DNA of 64,000 nucleotides from Marinomonas lutimaris (GTDB lineage: Bacteria; Pseudomonadota; Gammaproteobacteria; Pseudomonadales; Marinomonadaceae), in contig NZ_JAHLLW010000009.1 of the NCBI RefSeq assembly GCF_019426345.1, positions 1 to 64,000 on the forward strand. The letters are read 5' to 3'. The notes below the pieces were generated by a model. The model had not been told where the DNA came from, searched no databases, and saw nothing but the letters and a program-made list of their open reading frames with translations. Made by a program: the position numbers and the translations under genes. Positions within the stretch are counted from its first letter, which is position 1. Every line of letters starts with the position of its first letter. Shown in pieces: positions 1 to 42,248 of this stretch.

Positions 1-172
1 TTTATCGGGCTTTCGCCCAAACGTCTCATTTACTTTGTTTAAGGTAGCGTTTAGCAACACGACTTTTATCGTAAGGCATAGATTGTTAACTTGGTGCGAG
101 ATAGGTCTTCAAGCAATGACTCTGAAACTCCATAAAGTCGCGCAACTTCGTCGCGTCGAACTGACTTCATCC
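1..172 (-). repeat. Dispersed repeat family, copy 1
   Basis: First of seven copies in the window of a roughly 165-bp element. It begins at or before base 1 with the hairpin GGGCTTTCGCCC and ends near the GTCGCGTCGAACTGACTTCAT block. Read on the minus strand it encodes the peptide RRDEVARLYGVSES, which is nearly the same in all copies. Here it sits in an open frame of 69 codons (66-275), but other copies close that frame, so I treat it as a repeat and not a gene. Confidence 0.8.
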
Positions 173-214
173 TAGCTAATCGTCGGGAGTTACTCTGTTG
201 CAGTGAACTTAATT

Positions 215-345
215 CTTTGGTTAACTCAAGACTAACAGTGCGAGAACCAAACCCAATAACAAACGGCTTAGACAAGTCATTCCCGCGAAGGCGGGAATCA
301 AGCTCTTATGGTCTTGGGTAGGTCGCGGCTTCAGCCCGACGCGGA
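215..345 (+). repeat. Direct repeat left of the GNAT gene (REP-like hairpins)
   Basis: This stretch contains AAGACTAACAGTGCGAGAACC, then a small palindromic unit (TTCCCGCGAAGGCGGGAA, 280-297), then GGTCGCGGCTTCAGCCCGAC. The same order recurs at about 1080-1210 on the other side of the acetyltransferase gene, so the gene is bracketed by direct repeats. Confidence 0.75.
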
Positions 346-394
346 ATTTCTGATATACGATTTGTTTTGTGTTTTCAATGTCATTTGAAAATAA

Positions 395-499
395 TCACAG
401 TATTTCGCGTTGGTGCTGGTAGGGAGTAAGGAAGTCTTTTAGTATTCATTGAGAGTGACTCATCGCCTAGAGATAATCGAACATTCGTACTATTAAAAT
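395..499 (+). repeat. Cassette leader block, copy 1 (short)
   Basis: It contains GGTGCTGGTAGGGAGTAAGG followed by AAGTCTTTTAGTAT and ends in ACTATTAAAAT, immediately before the start region of the acetyltransferase gene. It matches the two longer leader blocks at 1240-1543 and 39330-39652 at both ends but lacks about 110-200 bp in the middle, including the TGTGGATAA motif. Confidence 0.65.
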
Positions 500-520
500 G
501 CCATGTAACGGAAAGGGAAA

Positions 521-1030
521 ATGCTAGAAACTGAACGATTGATTCTGCTTAAACCAAACAAAAATGATCTGGATGTCATTTCTGAAATACTCTCGTGTCC
601 TAAACAAACTAAGTACCTTCCAAATGAAGCGCCATATTCACAAATCCAACAGAAAGCGTACTTAGATAAGCGCATTGCTCATTGGGAGAATAATGAGTTC
701 GGTACTTTTATTATTTGTTTGAAAGATAACCCTCGCATCAAACTCGGTTTTGTTGGTGCTGAATACGCTCCAAACCCAAAATATGTGGATATTCGGTTCG
801 GTATCACCAAAGAGTTTGAAGAGAAAGGCTTTGTTACGGAAGCAGCAAGAGCGTTGGCAACTTGGTTTTTCGATAACACTGAACACGAAAAGCTTTATGG
901 CGTTTCAATGGTCGATAATGTTGGTTCTAAAGCTGTTTTAAAGAAACTTGGCATGACGCCAGAGAAAAATGTAGACCTCTATAATTGCGAAGGGCTAGAT
1001 AACTATAGCCTAGAGGCACCCACTGCATAA
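521..1030 (+). CDS. GNAT family N-acetyltransferase (RimJ/RimL-like)
   Basis: A 169-residue protein beginning METERLILL (after one residue) as in RimJ/RimL-type GNAT enzymes, which acetylate amino groups with acetyl-CoA. The acetyl-CoA binding region is around residues 96-125 (RFGITKEFEEKGFVTEAAR), followed by NVGSKAVLKKLGM, the usual end of the fold. ATG at 521 follows the Shine-Dalgarno sequence GGAAAGGG. The gene stands alone between direct repeats and follows a leader block shared with integron cassettes. Just after the stop, GCATAACAA resembles the left end of an attC but no right end is visible. The substrate cannot be told. Confidence 0.8.
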   Translation: MLETERLILLKPNKNDLDVISEILSCPKQTKYLPNEAPYSQIQQKAYLDKRIAHWENNEFGTFIICLKDNPRIKLGFVGAEYAPNPKYVDIRFGITKEFEEKGFVTEAARALATWFFDNTEHEKLYGVSMVDNVGSKAVLKKLGMTPEKNVDLYNCEGLDNYSLEAPTA

Positions 1031-1079
1031 CAATCTCATGTTGGCGCACATCTTTGTCGCATCGAACTGACTTATTCGG

Positions 1080-1212
1080 TTAATTCAAGACTAACAGTGC
1101 GAGAACCAAATCCAACAACGAAGCTCCATGGATGGCCGAGACACGTCATTTCCGCGAAGGCGGAAATCAAGCTCTTATGGCCTAGGATAGGTCGCGGCTT
1201 TAGCCCGACAAT
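1080..1212 (+). repeat. Direct repeat right of the GNAT gene
   Basis: Second copy of the 215-345 repeat: AAGACTAACAGTGCGAGAACC, a palindrome TTTCCGCGAAGGCGGAAA (1149-1166) and GGTCGCGGCTTTAGCCCGAC. A fragment of the seven-copy family (TCGCATCGAACTGACTT) precedes it at 1058-1074. Confidence 0.75.
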
Positions 1213-1239
1213 CAAAGAATCCAGAGCGAATAAAAAATG

Positions 1240-1543
1240 TATTTTATGTCTGTATATACAGTTTATTTTTAAAATGGTTATTTTATTGTGCGTTTAGCCA
1301 TTTTAAATAAACCCCGTTGTGCGCTTTTTGTACTGGTAGAAAGTAAGAAAGTCTTTTACTATCAATGGATAAGAATATCGGCAGACGAAATAACGCGCTG
1401 TGGATAAATTAAATAACACGTATGCTCGTTTTTCCAGTTTTGAATTTTGTTAATGTTCTTATAAAGTCTTTATTGTTTATATGGTTGTAAGGATATTTCG
1501 AGGTTTTAGAAATTGTCTAAACGCGCATGCGCACTATTAAAAT
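1240..1543 (+). repeat. Cassette leader block, copy 2
   Basis: About 300 bp shared, with gaps, with 39330-39652. Landmarks are CCATTTTAAATAAACC, GTAAGAAAGTCTTTTA, a perfect DnaA-box-like TGTGGATAA (1399-1407), GCTCGTTTTTCC, the palindrome GCGCATGCGC (1523-1532) and a terminal ACTATTAAAAT. Similarity stops at 1543, and TTAAGT (1545-1550), a possible first base string of a cassette, follows. No integrase gene is near. Confidence 0.7.
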
Positions 1544-1609
1544 ATTAAGTGTTCGCCAACATGCGATTGAATTATGCAGTAGTCGCTTTCATTAAAAAAG
1601 GAAATTACA

Positions 1610-1954
1610 ATGACCGCAAAACTGCTAAGAGTTAACAATATCGACTTGGCATTACTCAAAAGTAATCCGCCACAGCTGAGTATTACTGTTTTTGGATCAT
1701 CCCCAACCACAGGATGGACGAATACACATCTTGTACCCTATGTTTACATCATGCCTCCGGAAGGTGGTATTTATGATTTTGACTTGGTGGGAACCCCTCC
1801 ATCTGGGCCTGCTGGAGAGATGATCTCTCCAGCAGTTGCTAATTATATTTGGCCTGAATATCCGTCTGATCTTAAGGGGGTTAGGGTGCATGCATCTTTG
1901 AACAAGGCAGAAGAAATGTTAGCTGATGATACCAAGTCAATTAATTACGATTAA
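1610..1954 (+). CDS. Hypothetical protein, first gene of the Kiwa-bearing unit
   Basis: A 114-residue protein with no signal peptide, membrane segment or motif I recognise. It is rich in Pro and Gly in the middle (residues 47-75), with an acidic DFDLVGTPPSGP stretch. ATG at 1610 has the Shine-Dalgarno sequence AAAGGAAA. It follows the leader block by about 65 bp and is closed by a strong terminator before kwaA. Because it lies within the same inferred cassette as kwaAB it may be an accessory gene, but no function is visible. Confidence 0.65.
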   Translation: MTAKLLRVNNIDLALLKSNPPQLSITVFGSSPTTGWTNTHLVPYVYIMPPEGGIYDFDLVGTPPSGPAGEMISPAVANYIWPEYPSDLKGVRVHASLNKAEEMLADDTKSINYD

Positions 1955-1967
1955 TTTAATTACTTAA

Positions 1968-2010
1968 AAAATAAAGACAGCAGATGCTTCGCACCGCTGT
2001 CTTTATTTTT
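1968..2010 (+). terminator. Rho-independent terminator between 1610 gene and kwaA
   Basis: The arms AAATAAAGACAGC and GCTGTCTTTATTT enclose a loop of 14 bases and are followed by a run of T. The structure lies 10-20 bp before the kwaA ribosome binding site, leaving no room for a promoter, so kwaAB must rely on readthrough or on a promoter upstream of or inside the hairpin. Confidence 0.85.
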
Positions 2011-2030
2011 TAGCACTTTCAAGGAGTATC

Positions 2031-2543
2031 ATGCGAAACTGGATTAAGACACTTCTCTTTACATCGGCTTTTTCACCGACTTTGCTAGCACTTGCGTTTG
2101 TCAGGTTTCAAATTCAAGGTGTAGATTTTACAGTTTACCAGCTAATTATTATCTCTGTACTTGGTACCATTATCCCTTTATTAATTTTGGCTAAAGCAAA
2201 TAGATCGACGGAAGTCGTTAGGTTTCAAGCAAAGAAAATTGAGTCAACTGATTTCTTCTTGCTAGCATTTGTCGCCAGCTACATTGCTCCAATAATAATG
2301 CGAGCCGTTGAACTCGATTTTACAATTATTTCAACAATTTCAGCGCTTATAGTTGCTGTACTTTGGTTTATGACAGCGATTCCTTCGCATCCTCTTTTAT
2401 ATTTGTTCAAATTTAGATTTTATAAGGTTGAATCGGAAAGCGGGGTAGTTTACACGCTTCTAACAAAACGAGAGTTAAAAGATCCGAAAAATATCAAAAA
2501 TGTGAAATGTATTTCACACAGCATGCTTATGGAGAAGTACTAA
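2031..2543 (+). CDS. kwaA: Kiwa anti-phage system membrane protein KwaA
   Basis: A 170-residue protein with four predicted membrane helices (about residues 8-26, 36-54, 74-92 and 98-120) and a short cytosolic tail in which PLLYLFKFRFYKVESESG resembles the KwaA family ending. Size, topology and position directly before a DUF4868 gene are those of Kiwa, where KwaA senses phage attack at the inner membrane and works with KwaB. ATG at 2031 follows a strong AAGGAG (2021-2026). The stop overlaps the kwaB start (TAATG), so the two are translationally coupled. I identified it from memory of the family without an alignment. Confidence 0.75.
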   Translation: MRNWIKTLLFTSAFSPTLLALAFVRFQIQGVDFTVYQLIIISVLGTIIPLLILAKANRSTEVVRFQAKKIESTDFFLLAFVASYIAPIIMRAVELDFTIISTISALIVAVLWFMTAIPSHPLLYLFKFRFYKVESESGVVYTLLTKRELKDPKNIKNVKCISHSMLMEKY

Positions 2544-3421
2544 TGTTACTAAATTTATTTGCTCTGACAAATAATCCTGCAAATAGAATTGTACGATTTA
2601 AACTTACTGAAGATGTACAGGAAGAACTGTCTGGATTACTTATAGGTCAAGATAGGACTTTCGATGCAGCTATAGAAGAAGAGATTGAGTTTGATGGTAA
2701 GTACAAGCCTGACTCAGGTGAAGCTTTATTTATACAGAATTACGATGATATAGATAATCTGGAAAACTCAATAAGAAACCCTTTAGGGGTTGAAGAAGTC
2801 ATTCCTAATAATGACTTCTTTACATCAATTAAAGCTCTGTTTTCTGGGTATGAGAACGAAGATGGTTCCATAAGAATATTACTTCAGTATTTCGACAAAC
2901 GTAAAATCATATCAACAAATGGCCTTTCAATATTTCATTCTGTAGATGTATATAAGAAAGTTGAAGGTATAGGGATATCAATAGATACCAAGCTATCAGC
3001 AACGTTGACTGAAGGAAAATTAAGGTTCTTTAGCTTTCATCTATTACGTCAGGTTTTTGATCTAACACAATACTATAAAGAAGCCACAAATGATGATATC
3101 ACTGAGTTCTCTGGTCTGGAAAATATAAAAGTCACAGACAATGATCATCTTTTATCGATTTCTGATAGCTGGGTTCGCAGGAAGATCTCACTAATTCAGC
3201 AGAGTGAAATATTAAGTACAGTACCAATGAATCAAATGAAAGCTGTGGCTTTGGAATTTAATATTCCATTCGAAACAGTAATTGAAAGTGAAGTTGAAAT
3301 GATAAAATTACCTGATCAAAAAGCTGATCTGAAGATGCTTCTCAGGTTTCTTGATGAGGATTATTACCGATCACCATTATCAAACACTAATTTCGTCACT
3401 AATTCCAAGCGAGAAGCTTAA
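2543..3421 (+). CDS. kwaB: Kiwa anti-phage system DNA-binding effector KwaB (DUF4868)
   Basis: A 292-residue soluble protein. The N-terminus (LLNLFALTNNPANRIVRFKL) and the C-terminal half, with FDKRKIISTNGLSIFHS, a long helical middle and the tail DEDYYRSPLSNTNFVTNSKR, are typical of DUF4868, the KwaB domain. In characterised Kiwa systems KwaB binds phage DNA and stops late transcription and replication together with KwaA. An upstream ATG at 2507 is in frame, but the start at 2543 is preferred because GGAG (2531-2534) precedes it and it overlaps the kwaA stop by one base. No frameshift or truncation is seen. Confidence 0.78.
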   Translation: MLLNLFALTNNPANRIVRFKLTEDVQEELSGLLIGQDRTFDAAIEEEIEFDGKYKPDSGEALFIQNYDDIDNLENSIRNPLGVEEVIPNNDFFTSIKALFSGYENEDGSIRILLQYFDKRKIISTNGLSIFHSVDVYKKVEGIGISIDTKLSATLTEGKLRFFSFHLLRQVFDLTQYYKEATNDDITEFSGLENIKVTDNDHLLSISDSWVRRKISLIQQSEILSTVPMNQMKAVALEFNIPFETVIESEVEMIKLPDQKADLKMLLRFLDEDYYRSPLSNTNFVTNSKREA

Positions 3422-3520
3422 TTACCTACTAACAAGGTGTTGCTATGGAAAATTTACTCGCTAGCTCTCCCACGTTTCCGCAGAGCGCGGCGTTACGCCT
3501 TTTATATTAGGAGCACTACA

Positions 3521-4330
3521 ATGATTGAAGCTTTGAAGGATATTCCAATAGCAATTTGGTCGGTAGTATTGGGCTCGCTAATTACTTTATTCGGTGTTTT
3601 AATCTCCAACAGGAATAATAGAAAGAGATTGGAAATTCAGTTAAAACATGATGCAGAACTCCAAAAAGTTGAAAGAAAGGCTTCAGTGAGGCGCGAAGTT
3701 TACTTGAGTGCGGCTGAAGAATTAGTTAAGGCAAATAATTACCTTGGATCTCTTGCACAAATAGATCTCACTAAAACTAATATCGCTGAAGGGCTTCAAG
3801 GCTTTTTTACTTCAGCTGCGAAATTGGGTTTAGTTTCTGAGCAAGAAACTGGAAAAGCATTAAATGATCTGGTGTTGGCATATAGTGTTCTATTTTTTAG
3901 GTTGCTAGCTAAAGTGTCGCCTATTAATGATTCGAGAAGCGACATAAATATCATAAATTATCACTATGACGAATCTCAAATAGAGATAAAGAGAATTTTA
4001 GCTGGAATGACTAGCCAAAATGAATCTGGAGCGCCAAACAAAGTGGTTTTCGAAGCCTTAAACAAATCTTTTGAATTTCATAGTAATAGGTCAAAAGAGC
4101 TAACTGATGAAAGAGATGAGTGCTGGAAAAACGTAAATGAGCTCACAAGGAAATTCGCGATAGAGGTGGCAGAAGAAATGAAAGTAATTGTGCTACTTCA
4201 AATACCGGTTCTGGTAGGCATACGTAAAGAACTGGATTTAGAAACAGATATTGAATCCTACAAGCAACAAGTGGTAAACAACTCAGAAAAACTTAGCGAG
4301 CAACTTGATGTATTTATATCATCAATGTAA
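3521..4330 (+). CDS. Membrane-anchored coiled-coil protein (unknown)
   Basis: A 269-residue protein with one N-terminal membrane helix (about residues 10-28, IAIWSVVLGSLITLFGVLI) followed by basic residues (NRNNRKR) and a mainly helical, charged cytosolic region. An in-frame start at 3437 would cross an attC-like stretch; ATG at 3521 with GGAG (3510-3513) is the better choice. It lies 99 bp after kwaB in the same inferred cassette. The architecture recalls membrane-tethered helical proteins found near defence genes, but there is no recognised domain. Confidence 0.65.
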   Translation: MIEALKDIPIAIWSVVLGSLITLFGVLISNRNNRKRLEIQLKHDAELQKVERKASVRREVYLSAAEELVKANNYLGSLAQIDLTKTNIAEGLQGFFTSAAKLGLVSEQETGKALNDLVLAYSVLFFRLLAKVSPINDSRSDINIINYHYDESQIEIKRILAGMTSQNESGAPNKVVFEALNKSFEFHSNRSKELTDERDECWKNVNELTRKFAIEVAEEMKVIVLLQIPVLVGIRKELDLETDIESYKQQVVNNSEKLSEQLDVFISSM

Positions 4331-4336
4331 AACGAG

Positions 4337-4452
4337 ACTTAACCAATCGTGTTTGTCAGACAGTTTGTTCCATTGCTCTTTTGTGCCGCTCGCTACGCTA
4401 GCACTAGCATAAAACGCCACTACTCAAGCTGTTGCTGCACTAGGCGTTAGTG
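4337..4452 (+). other. attC-like site closing the Kiwa cassette
   Basis: R'' box ACTTAAC (4337-4343) and R' box GTTAGTG (4446-4452) bound 116 bp with an internal hairpin (GCTCGCTACGCTAGC). The right end CACTAGGCGTTAG resembles the VCR right end. ACTTAA is the complement of TTAAGT at 1545-1550, as expected if 1545-4446 is one cassette. The interior is degenerate, so confidence is moderate. Confidence 0.55.
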
Positions 4453-4467
4453 TGATCAGGAGGATAA

Positions 4468-5043
4468 ATGGCATCGTTTTGTAGTGAAAGAACAGTGGAA
4501 TACATGCTTGTCCCACGAATAGTTAGTATTCTAGAAAAGCATTTTGATACTGTCATTCCATTGTTTTCTTACGCGACGCGTGAATTCACAAAGTTGTCTA
4601 AAAACCTACATAGCAAAGATAACTTTCAAGTTATTGCGCTATTCCCAAGAAGACCGAAAGTTTCTGATACTGGAGAAGCAGGAATATCCATTTTCTATGG
4701 ACTTGATGAGTTTCAAATTATCACTCAATCTTTAGGGGTGCCAGTCGTATCAGGAAGTATTGATGCGTCTAATCTTTGGGAACTTGCTAAGCATGAAAAC
4801 TTTGTATGGTTTAATATGAGTCAATTTATAGAAGAAGCATATATAACGCCAATTAGCTCTATATATAGAAATACACCTGAAGCAATTTATAGTGAAAATG
4901 CTTTGATAGAACTGGCAAAAAGTAGTCGATGTATAACTTTTAGCGAGCTTGTTGAGATCGCAAAGCAGGGGCGTATGAAGTTGGGGCATCATCGCTATGG
5001 ACCAAGATATAGACCTGTGTACTTATTGTTGAAATCATACTAA
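4468..5043 (+). CDS. Hypothetical cassette protein
   Basis: A 191-residue protein that I do not recognise. It appears soluble, mixed alpha/beta, with no signal peptide. The start ATG at 4468 has CAGGAGG (4457-4463) in front. The stop lies inside the R'' box of the following attC, a very common arrangement in integron cassettes. The C-terminal third (LIELAKSSRCITFSELVEIA) looks like a small helical, possibly winged-helix segment, but this is a guess. Confidence 0.65.
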   Translation: MASFCSERTVEYMLVPRIVSILEKHFDTVIPLFSYATREFTKLSKNLHSKDNFQVIALFPRRPKVSDTGEAGISIFYGLDEFQIITQSLGVPVVSGSIDASNLWELAKHENFVWFNMSQFIEEAYITPISSIYRNTPEAIYSENALIELAKSSRCITFSELVEIAKQGRMKLGHHRYGPRYRPVYLLLKSY

Positions 5044-5166
5044 CAAAGCATTTAAGAGTGATTCCTAACGCTTAGTGTTTTCAGTTCAAGGTTGGGTTTC
5101 GTGTTTACGGCACAATGGTTTAGGTTATATGGTGAGCGTTGCTCACTACTTAACGCGGTGTTAAGT
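5038..5166 (+). other. VCR-like attC site
   Basis: 129 bp from R'' TACTAAC (5038-5044) to R' GTTAAGT (5160-5166). It begins TAACAAAGCATTTAAGAGTG and ends CACTACTTAACGCGGTGTTA, very close in layout to Vibrio repeat attC sites (TAACAAACGCCTCAAGAGGG start). Its R'' pairs with GTTAGTG at 4446 in six of seven positions (the seventh is T against G), so 4447-5160 is one cassette. No further cassette follows. Confidence 0.82.
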
Positions 5167-5326
5167 GTTCGGCAATCAAACTATATATCGTGTCGTTTAA
5201 AAATAAGAGGAAGGTAATGGCATTTAGGAGCCCTAATAATTTAGGGTCAGATGAAAAATAGAATCGCTTTTAATCAGTCCCAACTCCCCTAAGAATCCCA
5301 GCATTCCACATCAAACTGGAGACAAA

Positions 5327-5824
5327 ATGGATTTAGTCTTACCATCCTCAAAATATATCCAAAGTTATAACGAGTACATCGAAGAGTTGGGTGATGAAGT
5401 TCGTTACCCTTTTCCTATGGGTTTTGATCATCAAGATTTTGATGCACTTTTAGCGAAGTTGTCTGATTTTTCCTTGGGAAAAAATCTGCCTGACGGTTTT
5501 GTGCCAAGTACAACCTTGTGGCTGGTGGAAGGCGATCAGTTGCTTGGTGTGACTAATTTACGTCATTACCTTAATAGCGCTATTGAAGAGTGTGGTGGTC
5601 ATATTGGATTAGGTATTCGTCCATCTTACCGTGGCAAAGGTTTGGGTAAGTTGTTAATGAAGCTGTCGATAGAAAAGCTTAATGCTATGGACGTAAGTGT
5701 TGTTCATATTCACTGCTATAAAGATAACTCCGCATCGGCCAATACGATTATTGCTAATGGCGGCGAGTTAAGTTCTGAGCTGATTTTGGATGGTAAAGTG
5801 GTTCAACGGTATCGAGTCAGTTAA
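5327..5824 (+). CDS. GNAT family N-acetyltransferase
   Basis: A 165-residue GNAT enzyme. The acetyl-CoA binding motif is IGLGIRPSYRGKGLGKLL (residues 95-112, pattern R-G-x-G-L-G), followed by the NSASANTIIANGG helix. The substrate is unknown. ATG at 5327 follows GGAGAC. It lies just beyond the last attC of island A, and no R'' box follows it, so it is probably resident. A decayed copy of its 5' end lies downstream at 5873-5995. Confidence 0.85.
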   Translation: MDLVLPSSKYIQSYNEYIEELGDEVRYPFPMGFDHQDFDALLAKLSDFSLGKNLPDGFVPSTTLWLVEGDQLLGVTNLRHYLNSAIEECGGHIGLGIRPSYRGKGLGKLLMKLSIEKLNAMDVSVVHIHCYKDNSASANTIIANGGELSSELILDGKVVQRYRVS

Positions 5825-5872
5825 ATGGAATCAGGTGCAAATAAGACCTAATTTTCATCTGGTCCAAACGGC

Positions 5873-5995
5873 ACTTCAACTCAAGCTTTTCACCTCAAAC
5901 CAAAGACACAAACAGCGTTAGCCTTACATCCTCAAAACATATCTCAAGCTATAACGAGTCCATCAAAGCATTAGCTGATGAACTCGTTTCCACCT
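5873..5995 (+). pseudogene. Decayed duplicate of the GNAT gene 5' end
   Basis: The sequence runs parallel to the leader and first codons of the 5327 gene (5281-5400): TTACATCCTCAAAACATATC against TTACCATCCTCAAAATATAT, then CTATAACGAGTCCATC against TTATAACGAGTACATC, then GATGAACTCGTT against GATGAAGTTCGTT. There is no start codon and the frame is broken. It is a remnant of a tandem duplication that lost the rest of the gene. Confidence 0.7.
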
Positions 5996-6037
5996 CTCAA
6001 CCCCCTCCATTTTCCACAATTCCATTGACTTTCTTTC

Positions 6038-6069
6038 GTTCTTTATATAGAACGTTCTATATAAAGAAC
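6038..6069 (+). promoter_or_regulatory. Perfect 32-bp palindrome, likely operator
   Basis: Two 16-base halves, GTTCTTTATATAGAAC and GTTCTATATAAAGAAC, are exact reverse complements. Each half is itself close to a palindrome. The site lies 16-47 bp before the start of the XRE-cupin regulator gene and is a natural autoregulatory operator, or a hairpin in its leader. Confidence 0.7.
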
Positions 6070-6084
6070 AATTTGAGATGCACT

Positions 6085-6645
6085 ATGAATAAACCGATTC
6101 TCGGCTCGTTAGGGCGAAATATACAAAAATTGCGTATGGCAAAGGGGTTGTCTTTGTCTCAGCTGGCTCTGGATGCTGGGCTGGCGAAGTCTAATTTGTC
6201 TCGTATTGAGCAGGGTGAGGGCAATCCGACTTTAGAAACGATTTGGCGTTTGGCAGTACAACTGAATGTTCCGTTTGGGGATCTTGTGGCCAGTGTGGAG
6301 TCGACACTGGGCGAAAACGGTGTACAGGTCAGGTTGATTGATCAGGGCGAGGGGAATCCGCGCGTCGATGTGTATTGGATGTCTTGCGCGCCGAACACTA
6401 TTAAGCAATCAGAGCCGCATATTGCTGGTACGACAGAAGCTATAACCCTAATAAGTGGGCAATTGCTGGCGGGTGAAAGTAATGACTTACGCCAGTTGGA
6501 AATTGGCAAAGCCCATACTTTTGCGGCCGATGTTCCGCACAGTTATCAAACGGGCGATGAATGGGCGACGCTGATGATGGTCATTACTTATGCTAAACAG
6601 TCTGATGCTAAACAGGACGATGCCATACAGGAGGTACAGTCATGA
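6085..6645 (+). CDS. XRE family regulator with cupin domain
   Basis: A 186-residue transcription regulator: helix-turn-helix at residues 9-63 (LSLSQLALDAGLAKSNLSRI) and a C-terminal cupin (about 105-175), a fold that often binds a small ligand. An in-frame start at 6025 would pass through the 32-bp palindrome, so ATG at 6085 (MNKPILGSLG) is preferred although its Shine-Dalgarno (GAG) is weak. The stop overlaps the azlC start (ATGA), so it is co-transcribed with azlCD and probably controls amino-acid export. Confidence 0.88.
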   Translation: MNKPILGSLGRNIQKLRMAKGLSLSQLALDAGLAKSNLSRIEQGEGNPTLETIWRLAVQLNVPFGDLVASVESTLGENGVQVRLIDQGEGNPRVDVYWMSCAPNTIKQSEPHIAGTTEAITLISGQLLAGESNDLRQLEIGKAHTFAADVPHSYQTGDEWATLMMVITYAKQSDAKQDDAIQEVQS

Positions 6646-7364
6646 ATACAGCAACTCAAACTCTTGCGGGAACGCCTTGGAAACAAGGTGTAAAAGACGC
6701 GATTCCACTGCTTGGCGGTTACATTCCTGTGGCGATTTCGTTTGGTCTGATTTCCGTTCAGTCTGGTTTTAGTGTGTTAGAGACTGTTCTTATCTCTGCC
6801 TTTATTTATGCGGGCGCGTCACAGTTTCTTTTTGTTGCTATGGCGGCTTCTGGCGCGCCGTTATGGTTTGTGGTCATCATGACTTTGTTAATTAACGCTC
6901 GACATGTTGTTTATGGGCCAAATCTCTCTCCTTACTTAAACCAAGATAAAAAGTGGTTGCCACTAATGCATGGTTTGACCGATCAAATTTTTGCGCTGGC
7001 TCACGCACGTTTGCCTCAGCTTCCAGATCAGGCGCGGATAGGTTGGTACACAGGTGCAGCGGTGTTGGCCTGGTTGAGCTGGATTGCAGGAACCGCACTG
7101 GGTGCCATTGCGGGTGGAGAGTTGACGCAACGGTGGCCATTAATCAACGATATTTTGCCATTTGCACTACCAGCTCTGTTTTTCGTTTTAATTGTGCCGC
7201 GTTGTAATAATCGCTTGTGGACATTAACGATCGCTTTGTCTGCTGTTAGCGCTGTTATTTTGAAAGTGTCAGGTTACCCAAATGTCGCTATTCCGTTAGC
7301 GGCTTTGTGTGGCGCAGCCTTGTTCTACGCTCTGAAAAATCAGCGCGATATGGGAGGGCAATAA
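6642..7364 (+). CDS. azlC: AzlC family branched-chain amino acid exporter subunit
   Basis: A 240-residue integral membrane protein with the AzlC/YgaZ signature PLLGGYIPVAISFGLISVQSG near the N-terminus and YAGASQFLFVAMAASGAPLW in the second helix pair. It pairs with AzlD to export leucine analogues or other branched-chain amino acids. It overlaps the regulator by four bases and is followed by azlD after two bases. Confidence 0.9.
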   Translation: MNTATQTLAGTPWKQGVKDAIPLLGGYIPVAISFGLISVQSGFSVLETVLISAFIYAGASQFLFVAMAASGAPLWFVVIMTLLINARHVVYGPNLSPYLNQDKKWLPLMHGLTDQIFALAHARLPQLPDQARIGWYTGAAVLAWLSWIAGTALGAIAGGELTQRWPLINDILPFALPALFFVLIVPRCNNRLWTLTIALSAVSAVILKVSGYPNVAIPLAALCGAALFYALKNQRDMGGQ

Positions 7365-7366
7365 GT

Positions 7367-7708
7367 ATGGAAATGTCTATGTGGCTGGCGCTTGCTAGCA
7401 TTGCCATTGGTACCTATTTAATTCGTCTTTTACCCTATATTTGGATGAAGCGAAGCTTGGCGAAAAGACAAACGGAGGACGGCGTTGGCTCAATGCCGAC
7501 TTGGTTAACCATACTGGGGCCAACCATGATTGCCGCGATGTTCGGTACTTCGTTAGTTCCTGCTCATTCTGGGGCTTTGTCATGGCTAGCGACTGGGGTT
7601 GGGATACTGGTTACTTACGGTGTTTGGACTCGAACTCGCTCTATGGGTTTGCCTATTTTATTTGGGGTCCTGGCATTTGGAATTGTGATGCTGTTTTTTG
7701 TTTTCTAA
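7367..7708 (+). CDS. azlD: AzlD family small exporter subunit
   Basis: A 113-residue protein with three to four membrane helices (about residues 5-22, 40-60, 65-82 and 88-108) and the early IGTYLIRLLPYIW motif of AzlD/YgaH proteins. ATG at 7367, two bases after the azlC stop and preceded by GGGAGGG, is chosen over an in-frame start at 7307 inside azlC. Regulator, azlC and azlD form one operon. Confidence 0.88.
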   Translation: MEMSMWLALASIAIGTYLIRLLPYIWMKRSLAKRQTEDGVGSMPTWLTILGPTMIAAMFGTSLVPAHSGALSWLATGVGILVTYGVWTRTRSMGLPILFGVLAFGIVMLFFVF

Positions 7709-7853
7709 GAAAAATCCATTTAGTGCCCCAATAGTTGAAGAAAACTAAACACCTGAGTGAAAAAGCATCGTTTGTTAGGATGTTTATCTCCGATTAAAAT
7801 TGTATTAGTAAATAATTTCATCTACTCATACATTTTTATTCGGAGTGTTTATT

Positions 7854-8039
7854 ATGAACGCATTAGATAGCAAATCCTTATCTTCTCATGTGTTAGGCAA
7901 TGTAAAAATCGCAGGCCTTAACGGTTTGTTTGGTAAGCTAGTTAGCCTTTTTAAAAGCAGTGAGAAAGCAGCTAAAGCACCAGTAGACATGGAAGTAGAC
8001 AATCTTGATTGGTACCGCACTTTTCCTGTTAAAAAGTAA
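7854..8039 (+). CDS. Small hypothetical protein
   Basis: A 61-residue protein, with an amphipathic helix (LNGLFGKLVSLFKSS) and the C-terminus DNLDWYRTFPVKK. ATG at 7854 has CGGAG (7841-7845) at eight bases; a GTG at 7845 would overlap that site. It stands alone between azlD and a 340-bp gap. I do not recognise the family. Confidence 0.6.
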   Translation: MNALDSKSLSSHVLGNVKIAGLNGLFGKLVSLFKSSEKAAKAPVDMEVDNLDWYRTFPVKK

Positions 8040-37836: not shown

Positions 37837-38000
37837 TTTATCGGGCTATCGCCCAAACGTCTCATTCATTTTGTTTAACATCACGTCTTGCAAGACGATT
37901 TTTATCGGAAGGCATAGATTGGTTTTGATGATGCTAGGAAAGGTATTTTTATCTGATTCTGAAACTCCATAAAGTCGCGCAACTTCGTCGCGTCGAAGCC
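37837..38000 (-). repeat. Dispersed repeat family, copy 2
   Basis: TTTATCGGGCTATCGCCCAA start and the CGCGCAACTTCGTCGCGTCG end as in copy 1. After the shared GGAAGGCATAGATTG part it differs from copies 3 and 4, and it lacks AACTGACTTCAT. First 86 bases are almost identical to copy 4. Confidence 0.8.
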
Positions 38001-38127
38001 GCTTTTTTAAATTTATCTGGTTCCACTCAAACGCTTTGTATTCCCAACCTTTATTCCGCTTTTTAATTCAGGAAAAAGCTGAGCTGGTAACTTTTGCCAA
38101 TCGATGCAAAAGTAACCAAAAGGTCGC

Positions 38128-38296
38128 TTTATCGGGCTATCGCCCAAACGTCTCATTCACGTTGTTTAAGATTGGTCTAGCAGGACGATTTTTACCGTAA
38201 GGCATAGATTGTTTATTTAGTGAGAGACAGATTGTCAAACAATGACTCTGAAACTCCATAGGGTCGCGCAACTTCGTCGCGTCGAACTGACTTCAT
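38128..38296 (-). repeat. Dispersed repeat family, copy 3
   Basis: Complete copy ending GTCGAACTGACTTCAT. The minus strand reads MKSVRRDEVARPYGVSESLF and then soon stops. Preceded by the inverted pair GTAACTTTTG / CAAAAGTAAC. Confidence 0.85.
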
Positions 38297-38436
38297 GTGT
38301 GATGCTGGTTTTTGTAGGGCGGATGAGGGAGGTACGACCGTGATCCGCCGGAGAAAGCGAAGCTTTCATATGTAGGTCGTCCTTCAGGGCGACGCGAAAT
38401 TTAGATTCCATTCAAACGCTTTGTATTCCCAAGCTT
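38201..38436 (+). repeat. Exact direct duplication, left copy
   Basis: 236 bp repeated without a difference that I can see at 38600-38835, offset 399 bp. It spans the second half of family copy 3, a GTAGGGCGGATGAGGGAGG unit, GTAGGTCGTCCTTCAGGGCG and ATTCCATTCAAACGCTTTG. Confidence 0.85.
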
Positions 38437-38525
38437 TATTCCGCTTTTTAATTCAGGAAAAAGCTGAGCGGGTAACTTTTGTCCGCCGTTTAATTCAGAA
38501 AAGTACAAAAGTAACCAAAAAATCT

Positions 38526-38695
38526 TTTATCGGGCTATCGCCCAAACGTCTCATTCATTTTGTTTAACATCACGTCTTGCAAGACGATTTTTATCGGAAG
38601 GCATAGATTGTTTATTTAGTGAGAGACAGATTGTCAAACAATGACTCTGAAACTCCATAGGGTCGCGCAACTTCGTCGCGTCGAACTGACTTCAT
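38526..38695 (-). repeat. Dispersed repeat family, copy 4
   Basis: Left half matches copy 2 and right half matches copy 3 exactly, so it is a mosaic of the two, as gene conversion or unequal crossover would leave. Confidence 0.85.
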
Positions 38696-38835
38696 GTGTG
38701 ATGCTGGTTTTTGTAGGGCGGATGAGGGAGGTACGACCGTGATCCGCCGGAGAAAGCGAAGCTTTCATATGTAGGTCGTCCTTCAGGGCGACGCGAAATT
38801 TAGATTCCATTCAAACGCTTTGTATTCCCAAGCTT
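38600..38835 (+). repeat. Exact direct duplication, right copy
   Basis: Second copy of the 236-bp segment at 38201-38436. Sequence identity across the whole length implies a recent duplication or ongoing correction between copies. Confidence 0.85.
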
Positions 38836-39018
38836 GGTTCCGCTCTGCTGAGCGGGCTAGTTCCTTCCCCTTTCTTCAAGGGGAAGGTTAGGATGGGGTT
38901 ATTTCTTTGGGTTTTAAAGGATATTTGTTACTTCTCAATAGCTCCGAGCTGCAGGTTTATTCCGCTCTGCTGAGCGGGTAACTTTTGTCCAGATCCACAA
39001 AAGTAACCAAAAGGTCTC

Positions 39019-39186
39019 TTTCTCGGGCTATCGCCCAAACGTCTCATTTACGTTGTTTAATTCTGGATTAGCAACACGATTTTTATCGTAAGGCATAGAT
39101 TGATTATCTTGTGGGAGTTGGCTCGTCAAACAATGACCCTGAAACTCCATAGGGTCGCGCAACTTCGTCGCGTCGAACTGACTTTT
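39019..39186 (-). repeat. Dispersed repeat family, copy 5
   Basis: Complete but more divergent (TTTCTCGGGCTATCGCCC start, GTGGGAGTTGGCTCGTC inside). Followed by GTAGGGCGCGATGAGGGAGG and then the leader block of the cassette array. Confidence 0.82.
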
Positions 39187-39329
39187 TCGTAGCTAATTGT
39201 CTGCAAATTTATACCCGATACCGTAATGCTAATCGTAGGGCGCGATGAGGGAGGTACGACCGTGATCCGCCGGAGAAAGTGAAGCTTTCATTGTCTGAAA
39301 CCGACTTTATTTTTGGATGAAATTTAAAA

Positions 39330-39652
39330 CACAATTTATGGGTGGATATACAGTCTATTTTTGAGATGAAGGTATTTTTGCTCGTTTAACCATTTTAAAT
39401 AAACCGGTTGTGCGCGTTTTGTGCTGGAGGTAAGTAAGAAAGTCTTTTAGTATCAAGGAATAAGGATTTACAGAGCAGAAATAACGCGCTGTGGATAAAA
39501 AGAATAACGCGCACGCTCGTTTTTCCTGTTTTTCCTGTTTTTCCTGTTTTAACTTTTGTTGATATCTCTATTTATGGTTTTAGAGTCAGTGGCTTATAGT
39601 AATATTAAGAAGGTTTCCAATCTGTGTAAACGCGCATGCGCATTAACAAAAT
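39330..39652 (+). repeat. Cassette leader block, copy 3
   Basis: It shares with 1240-1543 the strings CCATTTTAAATAAACC, GTAAGTAAGAAAGTCTTTTA, TGTGGATAA (39490-39498), GCTCGTTTTTCC, GTAAACGCGCATGCGC and the terminal AAAAT. Inside, TTTTTCCTG is repeated three times (39520-39546) where copy 2 has it once. Similarity ends at 39652, and GTTAGGC, a good attI/attC core site, follows at 39653-39659. Confidence 0.75.
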
Positions 39653-39678
39653 GTTAGGCAACAATAGTGAGTATAAAT

Positions 39679-40284
39679 ATGGTAACAGAAGAATACACTA
39701 AGTATCTGAAAAGGCTTCAAAAAATTGTTTCAATGGAAGTCGTTCCTAAAACAGCTATGTTTGATTACTTTACATCAGATATTTATAAATATGATGAAGA
39801 TCCTCTAAAAGTTGAGCCGTTAGTGTGGTATATCCAATCAGCTTTACTATCAGACTTAACGTTTTCTATTTTTCGACTTTTTGATGATAAATCTGATAAA
39901 AATTTATATCACTTTGTTCGATTTTCAAGAGAAAACGCAAATAAAATTGAATGGAAATCGCCTTTAACTGCTGATGATTTCAAAGAGCAGCAGACAATGC
40001 TAAAAAGTATTCATGATCGCAAAGATAAATTGAGAAGACGTCGCAATATGTATTTTGCGCATTATTCAGAAGATTACTTTTTTGAACCCGAAAAAATACA
40101 GAAAGAGCTCCCTTTTACTAGGGAAGATGCCATAGCATTGGTTCGAGTTGCTCAGCAGATTATTGGTAAACATTCTTATGCTTTGAGCAACTCATCAGCA
40201 ATAAGTATTGATGGGTTCGTCTACGCTGCATCGGAGAAATTGTATGAAAAATTGAGAAGTAGCTATAATCAACCAATTGCCTAA
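39679..40284 (+). CDS. AbiU2/HEPN-like cassette protein
   Basis: About 201 helical residues. HDRKDKLRRRRNMYFAHYSED contains R-N-x4-H, the catalytic pattern of HEPN RNases, in the setting of HEPN_AbiU2-like proteins (abortive-infection family). A GTG at 39667 is in frame four codons upstream; neither start has a clear Shine-Dalgarno. The gene begins 20-26 bp after the core site GTTAGGC (39653-39659), and its stop lies within R'' GCCTAAC (40279-40285), exact complements, so this is a textbook cassette. Function as a toxin or defence RNase is inferred from the motif only. Confidence 0.65.
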   Translation: MVTEEYTKYLKRLQKIVSMEVVPKTAMFDYFTSDIYKYDEDPLKVEPLVWYIQSALLSDLTFSIFRLFDDKSDKNLYHFVRFSRENANKIEWKSPLTADDFKEQQTMLKSIHDRKDKLRRRRNMYFAHYSEDYFFEPEKIQKELPFTREDAIALVRVAQQIIGKHSYALSNSSAISIDGFVYAASEKLYEKLRSSYNQPIA

Positions 40285-40404
40285 CAAACTGTTCAAAAGG
40301 GACTCGTAACGCGTACCATTTTCACTATGCGTTGCGTTTAGTGTTTAAGGTGGTATGCGCGAGCTTTGGTATTGCGTTGCTCACACCTTAACAGGACGTT
40401 ATGT
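40279..40404 (+). other. VCR-like attC site (cassette B1)
   Basis: 126 bp from R'' GCCTAAC (40279-40285) to R' GTTATGT (40398-40404). It opens TAACAAACTGTTCAAAAGGG and closes CACACCTTAACAGGACGTTA, close to Vibrio VCR sites. The R'' box is the exact complement of the cassette start GTTAGGC at 39653. Confidence 0.9.
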
Positions 40405-40889
40405 TTTCTGGAGAGATCGTGCGTAAAGAAGATATTAATGACCCTTTAAAGGAGTATGCGTTTGATTTCTTTTATTGGTTCTCACGATTTGAGTTTGCGC
40501 TTAAAGAAAACCGTTTCTTAAAACGCAATGGCGCTGGAGAAAATGCAGAACCGGGGTGGGATGCGTTCGTAGAAAGGTACGCAGAGATGTTCGAGCACAC
40601 AGCGGAAACCAATAAGCTAATTGAACTTAACCCCAAAAGACAAAAGATTGGGGAGCATTCAGACCTTCAATGGCGCGAAGTAGGCTTAGCAGATTGTAAC
40701 TCTGAACTCTGTAGAGTTGTTCGCTTACTTAAAACGATCAGAAACAACCTCTTTCACGGAGGTAAACACGGTGCAGAGGGCTGGGATAATCCAGAACGAA
40801 CACAAGACTTATTGGTTACAGGTAAATCAATCCTAGATCAATTGGCAAGCTTGGCTGACATTGAAGCAGACTATACCCAATACTATTAA
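40401..40889 (+). CDS. HEPN-domain cassette protein
   Basis: A 162-residue helical protein. RLLKTIRNNLFHGGKHG (about residues 110-127) is a very good HEPN signature, R-N-x3-H, typical of RNases in toxin-antitoxin and defence proteins and of some nucleotide-transfer-regulated toxins. The start ATG at 40401 lies inside the R' box GTTATGT, with AGGA (40393-40396) in the preceding attC as the only ribosome binding site, so the previous cassette supplies its translation start. No antitoxin gene adjoins it in the same cassette. Confidence 0.72.
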   Translation: MFSGEIVRKEDINDPLKEYAFDFFYWFSRFEFALKENRFLKRNGAGENAEPGWDAFVERYAEMFEHTAETNKLIELNPKRQKIGEHSDLQWREVGLADCNSELCRVVRLLKTIRNNLFHGGKHGAEGWDNPERTQDLLVTGKSILDQLASLADIEADYTQYY

Positions 40890-40891
40890 AA

Positions 40892-40964
40892 ACATAACAA
40901 GCAAAGGCAGCATCGCCCTGCGGGCTGGACGCGCTACCGCGCGCCGCTGCTTTGGGCGTTATAG
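40892..40964 (+). other. Short attC site (cassette B2)
   Basis: 73 bp from R'' ACATAAC to R' GTTATAG. The arms ATAACAAGCAAAGGCAGC and GCTGCTTTGGGCGTTAT pair almost fully and the loop contains GCCCTGCGGGC and GCGCGC. R'' is the exact complement of the cassette start GTTATGT at 40398. Confidence 0.9.
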
Positions 40965-40978
40965 GGCAAAGGAAACTA

Positions 40979-41419
40979 ATGGAAAGCATCGACTTCTATA
41001 CCGTTTCATTAAAAAAGGTATACAAAGAATGGCCTCAAAGTACTCGAGACGCGATAGATCGAGATAGTAAAATCATCTGGTATTATTTTCTTGGTTGGGT
41101 TGCATTCCTTGTGCTGGCATTAGCTGGTGCAATGTACCTTATTGTAAGTGATGTTGTCCTTGATTCTGTTGGAAACAAAATACAGAGGGTTGGCTCACTC
41201 ATGTCGTTGTTTATTTTGTTTGGGGAGATAGCTTTTATTTATAAGCTTAATGACCTCACAAAAGTGAAGCATCCTGCTGGGCTCATGTTTGAAATCTATA
41301 AAGCTAGATTCTTTAAGCCTCTGACAATATTTACATTAGTTGTATCATTTATCCTTGTGGCATCAGGTGCAATCATGTCTGGGTATGGTGATTGTATATA
41401 TGAGCATTTTGCCCAATAA
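40979..41419 (+). CDS. Small membrane protein of cassette B3
   Basis: A 146-residue protein with three predicted membrane helices (about 33-54, 68-86 and 111-133). No family recognised. ATG at 40979 with AAAGGAA in front is preferred to an in-frame TTG at 40952, which would lie within the attC. It follows two HEPN-type cassettes; a joint function is not implied, because cassettes usually move alone. Confidence 0.7.
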   Translation: MESIDFYTVSLKKVYKEWPQSTRDAIDRDSKIIWYYFLGWVAFLVLALAGAMYLIVSDVVLDSVGNKIQRVGSLMSLFILFGEIAFIYKLNDLTKVKHPAGLMFEIYKARFFKPLTIFTLVVSFILVASGAIMSGYGDCIYEHFAQ

Positions 41420-41543: not shown

Positions 41544-41704
41544 CTTCGACGCGACGAAGTTGCGCGACTCTATGGAGTTTCCGAGTCATTAACGGAAAGA
41601 TTCTCTCCAGCAGCATAACCAATCCATGCCTTACGATAGAAGTCGTGTTGCTAGACGTGATGTTAAATAAAGTAAATGAGACGTTTGGGCGATAGCCTGA
41701 TAAA
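41544..41704 (+). repeat. Dispersed repeat family, copy 6 (inverted)
   Basis: Inverted relative to copies 1-5. It reads TTCGACGCGACGAAGTTGCG at the left and GGGCGATAGCCTGATAAA at the right. It abuts the end of the cassette array within two bases. Confidence 0.82.
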
Positions 41705-41710
41705 ATAACG

Positions 41711-41850
41711 ACCCCATCCTCCGCCTTCCCCTTGGAAGACAAAAGGGGAAGGGACTAAGCCCTCGCTCAGCAGAGCGGAAAAAAAGCTTAGGAATCCAAA
41801 GCATTTGAATGGAATCTAAATTCCGCGTCGGGCTAAAGCCGCGACCTACC
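41711..41850. repeat. Composite repeat segment, inverted
   Basis: CCATCCTCCGCCTTCCCCTT with AAAAGGGGAAGGG, then CGCTCAGCAGAGCGG, CATTTGAATGGAATCTAAA and CGTCGGGCTAAAGCCGCGAC. These are the reverse complements of units at 38200-38440 and 38838-38990 and of 316-340. Confidence 0.75.
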
Positions 41851-41947
41851 ATACAATGAAAGCTTTGCTTTCAGCGGCAGTTTTTAATTAGATAGTCGCT
41901 GCGCTTATGATGCCCTACGTCCTTTGTTTTCCATCACTGCAATCCTG

Positions 41948-42117
41948 AAGAAGTCAGTTCGACGCAACGAAGTTGCGCGACCCTATGGAGTTTCCGAGTA
42001 ATTAACGGAAAGCCTCTCTCGAACAGCAAGACCAATCTATGCCTTACGATATAAGTCGTCTTGTTAATGATGATGTTAAACAAAGTGAATGAGACGTTTG
42101 GGCGATAGCCCGATAAA
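41948..42117 (+). repeat. Dispersed repeat family, copy 7 (inverted)
   Basis: Starts GAAGTCAGTTCGACGCAACG and ends GGGCGATAGCCCGATAAA. It is followed by AAGTAACC-type and CAGCAGGACGGAA units and by a second C-rich element at 42249-42297. Confidence 0.82.
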
Positions 42118-42248
42118 GAGACTTTTTGGTTACTTTTGCACTTTCCTAAATTAAGTAGTGGGTAAAAGTTACCCGCTCAGCAGGACGGAATAAACTTGCA
42201 GCTCAAAGTCATTGAGAAGTAACAAATATACTTGAAGATCCATAGAAC

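Follow-up and report, generated by a model that had tools for sequence, protein, structure and literature searches.

In the bacterium Marinomonas lutimaris, a gene pair of the anti-phage system Kiwa lies in an integron-type cassette array that starts with an attI recombination site without an adjoining integrase gene. The array was found in the window analysed here, i.e., the first 64 kb of the 172,708-base contig C66 in the 4.54-Mb draft genome (window position 1 is the start of the contig). The evidence assembled below makes it probable that such orphan attI sites are platforms that are loaded in trans by the integron integrase IntI, often with defence genes, and that the Kiwa pair is one such load. 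An orphan platform, or dock, would be a duplicate (~300 bp) of the promoter region of intI together with attI, called the leader below, from which intI was lost. The orphan attI cores would be recognized by the IntI encoded on contig C15 of the same genome, and this enzyme would add cassettes at the docks or remove them, one IntI serving several docks, many of them with phage-defence genes. A further possible function of the leader is to provide a promoter. The docks would then still be working, and the Kiwa pair would be expressed and defensive.

The Kiwa gene pair

The pair is Kiwa, with a gene for the membrane protein KwaA adjoining one for KwaB (DUF4868):

2031 to 2543, plus strand: kwaA, 170 amino acids; PADLOC PDLC00210, 4.2e-73
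2543 to 3421, plus strand: kwaB, 292 amino acids; PADLOC PDLC00222, 8.2e-106; Pfam KwaB PF16162, 35.6 bits (cut-off 26.3)

The two genes overlap by a single base, at 2543. Both the identification as Kiwa and the limits of the two reading frames had been proposed in a first-pass annotation of the window, and both are confirmed. The pair resembles known Kiwa systems in the adjacency of the genes and in their matches to the PADLOC and Pfam models, but scores far beneath the NCBI equivalog cut-offs (28.3 of 100 bits for KwaA, 20.7 of 200 for KwaB). It is, therefore, a divergent Kiwa, distant from the members of those models. A search of solved structures by sequence alone revealed no relative of either protein. 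Among 48 genomes of the genus, kwaB is present in five, and the other four KwaB proteins are 31–39% identical to that of the window. In the accessible part of PMC12904381, KwaA is presented as a membrane sensor of infection and KwaB as a binder of injected DNA.

The attI leader of the Kiwa dock

The array is preceded by the following elements:

1249 to 1544, plus strand: orphan attI leader, comprising the former intI promoter region and attI; 227 bits to leader profile R1
1250 to 1261, plus strand: degenerate LexA-type box CTGTATATACAG, with a spacer of 4 instead of 8
1518 to 1544, plus strand: attI core TAAACGCGCATGCGCACTATTAAAATA, two bases off the Shewanella attI AAACGCGCATGCGCACTAATAAAATGTT given in the available text of PMC9892861

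Profile R1 was built from six leader copies, including this one. Over 233 bases, the leader shows 78% identity to the DNA that separates intI from the first cassette on C15. It has the known core followed by a crossover of the G/TT type (the base before TT at this dock is considered below), which lies at 1544/1545, with TTAAGT at 1545–1550 directly after the leader. Judged by its sequence, the leader to the left of 1545 is an attI region without an adjoining integrase gene. The array thus does not belong to a complete integron, in which intI adjoins attI; the only full-length intI match in the genome, with a leader of its own, is on C15. The first-pass annotation had described this segment as being without an integrase, which is true of the window but not of the genome. 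LexA-type boxes have the consensus CTGT-N8-ACAG, and the intI-linked leader copy on C15 carries such a box, CTGTACAAATATACAG.

Some further features of the leader can be mentioned. Profile positions ~152–283 form an inverted repeat, in which the attI core block resembles an upstream GCGCACGCTCG block on the opposite strand. The repeat was also seen as reverse-strand self matches in the leader searches, and it might offer IntI a second place to bind. A decayed, truncated leader copy (28 bits) is found at 348–1030 of the window, before a GNAT gene, and in one related genome (G032) a stretch 94% identical to window positions 1–1073 lies just before the leader.

Integrase and leader copies in genome and genus

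The C15 gene encodes a full-length IntI that can be aligned over its entire length with the Vibrio cholerae integron integrase of structure 2a3v (7.2e-87). The alignment contains R, HxxR and Y, which we take to be the catalytic residues. Against the NCBI integron-integrase model, the protein scores 285 bits, which is under the cut-off of 435. Its closest named relatives, among the best 120 of 1030, are 77–87% identical and are all from Marinomonas.

A search of the source genome with the leader sequence gave ten matches, including the query, and profile R1 gave 12 at E ≤ 1e-5, six of which are full or nearly full. These six are located on C15 (with intI), C1, C5 and C10, and, in two copies, in the window. 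None of the five besides that on C15 adjoins an intact intI. C65 carries three weaker copies, and phage tail and regulator genes are found within a few kb of two of these. A leader copy in another genome (G039) likewise lies near phage genes and has the left flank of one of the C65 copies. Prophages may be carriers of docks.

Leaders were detected in 47 of the 48 genus genomes at E ≤ 1e-12, with at least 225 copies in total and 0 to 15 per genome; these counts are lower bounds, as at most 37 candidates were scored per genome. The cut-off excludes reverse-strand self matches. The family-level search covered the same 48 genomes. Full-length intI (≥77% identity) is rarer, with 19 genes, one of them with a stop codon, in 17 of the 48 genomes. 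Nevertheless, 30 of the 31 genomes without full-length intI still have leaders. In a sample of 369 genomes of the class, the 26-base attI core, when up to two mismatches were allowed, was found in one, the source genome, which has five copies and was the only genus member in the sample. The core is one to two bases off the Shewanella attI in the available text of PMC9892861, and some leaders carry one extra A. In a viral collection, the exact core occurs on six contigs, whose examined DNA (11–15 kb for five contigs, 3 kb for one) contained no intI. The closure motif described below is present on five of them, and the sixth has 400 bases downstream.

The LexA box CTGT-N8-ACAG is retained in all five leaders beside a full-length intI and in eight of the 12 with an intI-type flank but no full-length gene, whereas only two of the 52 orphans without an intI flank have kept it, with their attI block being ~0.89 conserved. 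Loss of the box with conservation of attI fits selection for the dock and not for the control of intI. Two common left flanks without intI, recognized by motif, precede 6 and 21 of 69 leaders, which suggests that the orphans themselves have been copied. Dense dispersed repeats (cgggctatcgcccaaacgtctcatt ... cgcgcaacttcgtcgcgtcgaa) flank the second dock of the window, at 37840–39320 and 41545–42130, and are also found to the left of many leaders in other genomes; leaders may have been duplicated by way of these repeats.

Two chromosomal docks and their differing arrays

The second dock of the window, located after dcd, is composed as follows:

39348 to 39653, plus strand: second orphan attI leader, 215 bits; crossover at 39653/39654
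39654 to about 41540, plus strand: array of the second dock, with three open reading frames (ORFs); right end by eye
39667 to 40284, plus strand: AbiU2-type HEPN gene, first in the array; Pfam PF18734, 4.9e-12
40401 to 40889, plus strand: ORF
40952 to 41419, plus strand: ORF, start codon provisional

In this array, a closure is formed by TTAGGC and GCCTAACAA at 40279, and the arm-pairing scan described below lists an attC at 40892–40964. This second leader with its array, the attI nature of the first leader and an attC at 3427–3498 had all escaped the first-pass annotation.

Both docks are found at the same chromosomal sites in other genomes. The Kiwa dock lies upstream of azlC, and a leader is present there in eight of 15 other genomes examined (out of 25 with matches; one had only ~1.3 kb before the contig end). 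At dcd, seven of 15 (out of 47) have one. When the azlC loci are compared with the window, homology covers the leader and ends at 1547–1551 in seven of the eight genomes and at 1451 in G038, which shows that the left breakpoint assigned earlier to 1544/1545 is real. Homology resumes at 5956–6038 in seven genomes. In three of the genomes (G032, G024 and G039), homology is also found at a GNAT gene, from 5268–5307; in G038, this gene is matched and the available stretch ends before azlC. In between, the contents differ: no two of the nine azlC genomes, and no two of the eight dcd genomes, are alike in the first 500 array bases (blastn, E 1e-5).

These observations bear on the usual view that arrays without intI are wrecks of complete integrons. 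With attC sites at 3427–3498 and 5038–5166 and no intI on C66, the Kiwa array has the at least two attC and the lack of a neighbouring intI that define a cluster of attC sites lacking integrases (CALIN), and CALINs were proposed to be degraded integrons (PMC9024848, in the part available). All arrays could thus have been loaded by an intI in cis and be frozen now. In agreement with this, by eye, a 5′ remnant of intI lies to the left of the leader on C1, 12 of the 69 leaders have an intI-type left flank without a full-length gene, and several genus genomes contain only intI fragments. However, the second leader of the window (source genome, G000) falls into a single clade with the dcd leaders of G013, G038 and G001 (support 99 in the Shimodaira-Hasegawa-like approximate likelihood ratio test, SH-aLRT). 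These four leaders have a common left flank without intI, and yet four arrays with dissimilar first stretches start there at the same base. Insertion or excision at that base after the loss of intI from the site points to an IntI acting from elsewhere, and it seems rather unlikely that the arrays are merely frozen remnants.

Closure of the first cassettes

A first cassette closes on itself when its first bases are complementary to the R″ box of the attC at its end. Among 66 sources searched, 72 forward leaders above 70 bits were taken and six weaker ones left out. Three had no recognizable crossover and four too little downstream DNA, leaving 65. The exact closing motif RYYYAACAA (the complement of the first six cassette bases plus CAA) is present within 5 kb of 54 of the 65 leaders, compared with a mean of 10.2 and a maximum of 21 in 1000 trials with swapped motifs. 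Four leaders (L120, L123, L132 and L079) are followed, exactly at the crossover, by a sequence starting TTGAACTAAG; in three of these cases (G038, G001 and G003), a distant tyrosine recombinase, 26–29% identical to IntI, is encoded ~100 bp further on. This sequence is possibly an element aimed at attI. Two IS91-type transposases were also seen among the scanned array proteins.

Cassette borders at the Kiwa dock

Behind the first leader, the following features were delineated:

1545 to 2009, plus strand: probable cassette 1 with ORF1, from the crossover to the start of the kwaAB cassette as placed from relatives
1610 to 1954, plus strand: ORF1, 114 amino acids; no family above curated cut-off
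1962 to 2016, plus strand: perfect hairpin at the ORF1/kwaA junction; core AAA/TTT instead of AAC/GTT; fold z −6.97
2010 to about 3492, plus strand: putative cassette 2, kwaAB; start like that of closed kwaAB cassettes of relatives, attC-like site at the end
3427 to 3498, plus strand: putative attC of the kwaAB cassette, directly after kwaB; R″ TACTAAC, R′ GTTACGC; arm-pairing score 13.0
3493 to 4446, plus strand: probable cassette 3 with ORF4; in G352, a relative of ORF4 is followed, by eye, by an attC-like site
3521 to 4330, plus strand: ORF4, 269 amino acids; no family above curated cut-off; N-terminal hydrophobic stretch by eye
4337 to 4452, plus strand: ORF4/ORF5 junction; R″ ACTTAAC (4337–4343), R′ GTTAGTG; weak arms
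4447 to 5160, plus strand: putative cassette 4 with ORF5; start TTAGTG against R″ TACTAAC, 5/6 bases
4468 to 5043, plus strand: ORF5, 191 amino acids; no family above curated cut-off
5038 to 5166, plus strand: putative attC of cassette 4, long form; R′ GTTAAGT; arm-pairing score 13.2, fold z −2.69

Sites were sought with a purpose-made arm-pairing scan, which under the null yields ~0.15 matches per 10 kb per strand at ≥13 and gives 61% of closure-defined sites a score of ≥13. Whole-site folding separates attC poorly, since a Ferrimonas site with good arms has a z of +0.56; reliance was, therefore, placed on arm pairing and closure. In positions 1–8000, the scan also lists a weak and probably false site at 644–758 (11.1), inside a GNAT gene.

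Most likely, kwaAB is a two-gene cassette of its own at about 2010–3492. The arms at 3427–3498 provide an attC at its 3′ end, and the TTAGCACTTTCAAGGAGTATC preceding kwaA in the window resembles the start TTAGCCGCACAAGGAGTA in Ferrimonas. In Shewanella profunda, the kwaAB cassette starts with G^TTAGCCGA and ends with TCGGCTAAC, an eight-base closure with attC directly after kwaB (5887–5984; arm-pairing score 13.4, fold z −2.86). In Ferrimonas kyonanensis, kwaAB is a two-gene cassette with a seven-base closure, and in Alloalcanivorax gelatiniphagus, with a six-base closure, it is perhaps a closed two-gene cassette as well. Closure of at least six bases is thus found at three of 31 other kwaAB loci, compared with 2.3% of swapped pairs, and 28 have none (31 of 32 loci were tested, L191 being left out, and the start of kwaA was guessed for five). 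The claim of the first-pass annotation that Kiwa is carried by integron-type cassettes is borne out by these data.

The same annotation had taken 1545–4446 to be one 2.9-kb cassette with ORF1, kwaA, kwaB and ORF4, which could perhaps have arisen by fusion. TTAAGT at 1545–1550 and ACTTAAC at 4337–4343 are indeed exact complements, the ORF1/kwaA junction has no normal attC core, and the attC-like site after kwaB folds no better than shuffled sequences (z +0.02). On the other hand, attC-like arms directly follow kwaB, kwaAB is closed alone in other genera, and, by eye, the relative of ORF4 in another genus ends in an attC-like site of its own (fold z −2.54), which is not listed by the arm-pairing scan at 12.5. 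Furthermore, an attC at 4337–4452 could not be confirmed (arm-pairing score <9.5, fold z +1.14). The complementarity itself is no proof of a single cassette, because ACTTAAC occurs twice within 5 kb of the leader (4337 and 5148) and a seven-base match is expected about once in three leaders by chance (mean 20.8 of 65 after swapping motifs between leaders). A single large cassette is, therefore, improbable, and about four cassettes, with ORF1, kwaAB as the second, ORF4 and ORF5, appear to be present in view of the attC after kwaB, the closure of kwaAB elsewhere and the attC-like site of the ORF4 relative. The hairpin between ORF1 and kwaA reads as either a terminator or a decayed attC; with no normal attC core at this junction, ORF1 and kwaAB may have become a single mobile unit.

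As to the neighbouring genes, the hydrophobic stretch near the N terminus of ORF4 suggests a membrane anchor. ORF4 has 115 relatives besides itself, 31–84% identical and mostly from contigs <10 kb, and its profile matches in two of 390 genomes of the order, one being the source genome. Two weak matches to solved structures in a sequence-only search (E 0.03–0.04) were taken as chance. An Rfam scan of the window gave no match, and a tRNA search found none.

Array stretches common to different docks

Related stretches occur in arrays at different docks: positions 1–922 at dcd in G028 match 899–1827 at azlC in G030 (90%), and 725–1270 at azlC in G039 match 1205–1750 at dcd in G013 (92%). In G027, stretches that are 99% identical are found at different docks (L087, L088 and L089), which is recent copying between docks. 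Such patterns raise the question whether it is homologous recombination, between leader copies or between strains, and not IntI, that exchanges the cassettes. The near-identical stretches at two G027 docks would be compatible with this, as would the occasional clustering of leaders from the same genome (dcd and d in G018, c and dcd in G039, intI and azlC in G013; each with SH-aLRT 99). However, the end points of homologous crossovers would be scattered over the 300 bp of the leader, whereas at azlC seven of the eight genomes lose homology at the attI crossover, and the majority of first cassettes are self-closing. Homologous recombination as the sole route is thus quite improbable. It is hardly conceivable that the cassettes lie in non-classical attG-like genomic sites and not at true attI copies: IntI is able to use attG sites (PMC12901181, in the part accessible), but the flanking 300 bp are homologous to the intI-attI region and do not constitute a short unrelated target, and the alignment disfavours this possibility.

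Cassette loads

In the source genome, five of the six full docks contain a PADLOC defence match:

First dock of the window: Kiwa
C15: PDC-S21
C1: AbiJ (weak match); the array also has a PIN-domain gene
C10: AAA ATPase resembling AriAB
C5: Shedu (2e-150) and PDC-S15

The sixth, i.e., the second dock of the window, has the AbiU2-type HEPN gene, recognized by Pfam only. In other genomes, 136 array proteins were scanned, and there were matches to HerA/SIR2, to restriction-modification and to several candidate systems. The commonest family in that set is, however, that of the acetyltransferases (9/136), and the docks are thus not for defence alone.

How well does loading in trans hold?

Several points weigh against loading of orphan docks in trans. 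The Kiwa dock itself has A, not G, before TT at the crossover (among the 69 leaders, the base is G in 63, A in four, including this dock, and T in two), and it may be inactive. It is also among the 11 of 65 leaders that fail the closure test, and there is no exact closure of the kwaAB cassette in the window, where the start TTAGCA has one mismatch with R″ TACTAAC. A promoter scan found no plus-strand promoter-like site in the leader and no excess in the region (15 found, 14.6 expected). The azlC leaders are not one clade; that site may, therefore, be a hotspot or recombine. Many genomes with leaders lack an intact IntI, and their docks would be frozen unless IntI comes and goes. Finally, the leaders analysed are the high-scoring ones of chosen genomes and not a random sample, and the whole case is built from sequence.

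On balance, though only just, the integron of the genus can be pictured as a distributed system, with one IntI that is often lost and regained and several dispersed orphan docks. Their number would reach ~15 per genome; some would lie in prophages, and at least one would be inherited across species. The docks would have lost the SOS control of intI and kept attI, with defence cassettes being repeatedly exchanged, and many CALINs elsewhere may be of the same kind, their attI not having been searched for. Usually, an integron is seen as one platform beside intI. If orphan attI sites are loaded in trans, a cell would have several first positions available for cassettes, and views on cassette expression, on the storage of defence genes and on CALINs would have to change. 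Prophage-borne leader copies would give the docks a vehicle.

Comparison with known systems

Libraries of defence genes in integrons, which like the present docks hold such genes in cassettes, were reportedly described in 2025 by Darracq, Getz and Kieffer, in papers whose titles concern sedentary chromosomal and mobile integrons. The link between Kiwa and integrons proposed in the first-pass annotation holds but is not new: according to the available text of PMC12444791, DefenseFinder detected Kiwa among integron cassette genes of Xanthomonas. The present dock shares with those the location of Kiwa in cassettes and differs in that the cassette borders and the orphan attI are addressed. CALINs and single attC sites lacking integrases (SALINs), as treated in the accessible parts of the Shewanella study (PMC9229058) and of the IntegronFinder 2.0 paper (PMC9024848), also comprise attC cassettes away from intI, several per genome, whereas the Marinomonas arrays start with an attI leader. 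According to the latter paper, IntegronFinder detects attI in class 1 integrons only. Among the matches listed in searches of the open-licence literature, there were no genus-wide, dispersed and conserved attI docks whose cassettes change, and there was nothing on Marinomonas integrons or dispersed attI except the prophage M16-3. The closest precedent is the CALIN of that Shewanella prophage (PMC9892861, in the part available), in which an attI with a near-identical core already heads an array without intI. That case concerns a single prophage that also carries a complete integron, whereas the Marinomonas copies are spread genus-wide and located at conserved chromosomal sites, where the cassettes change.

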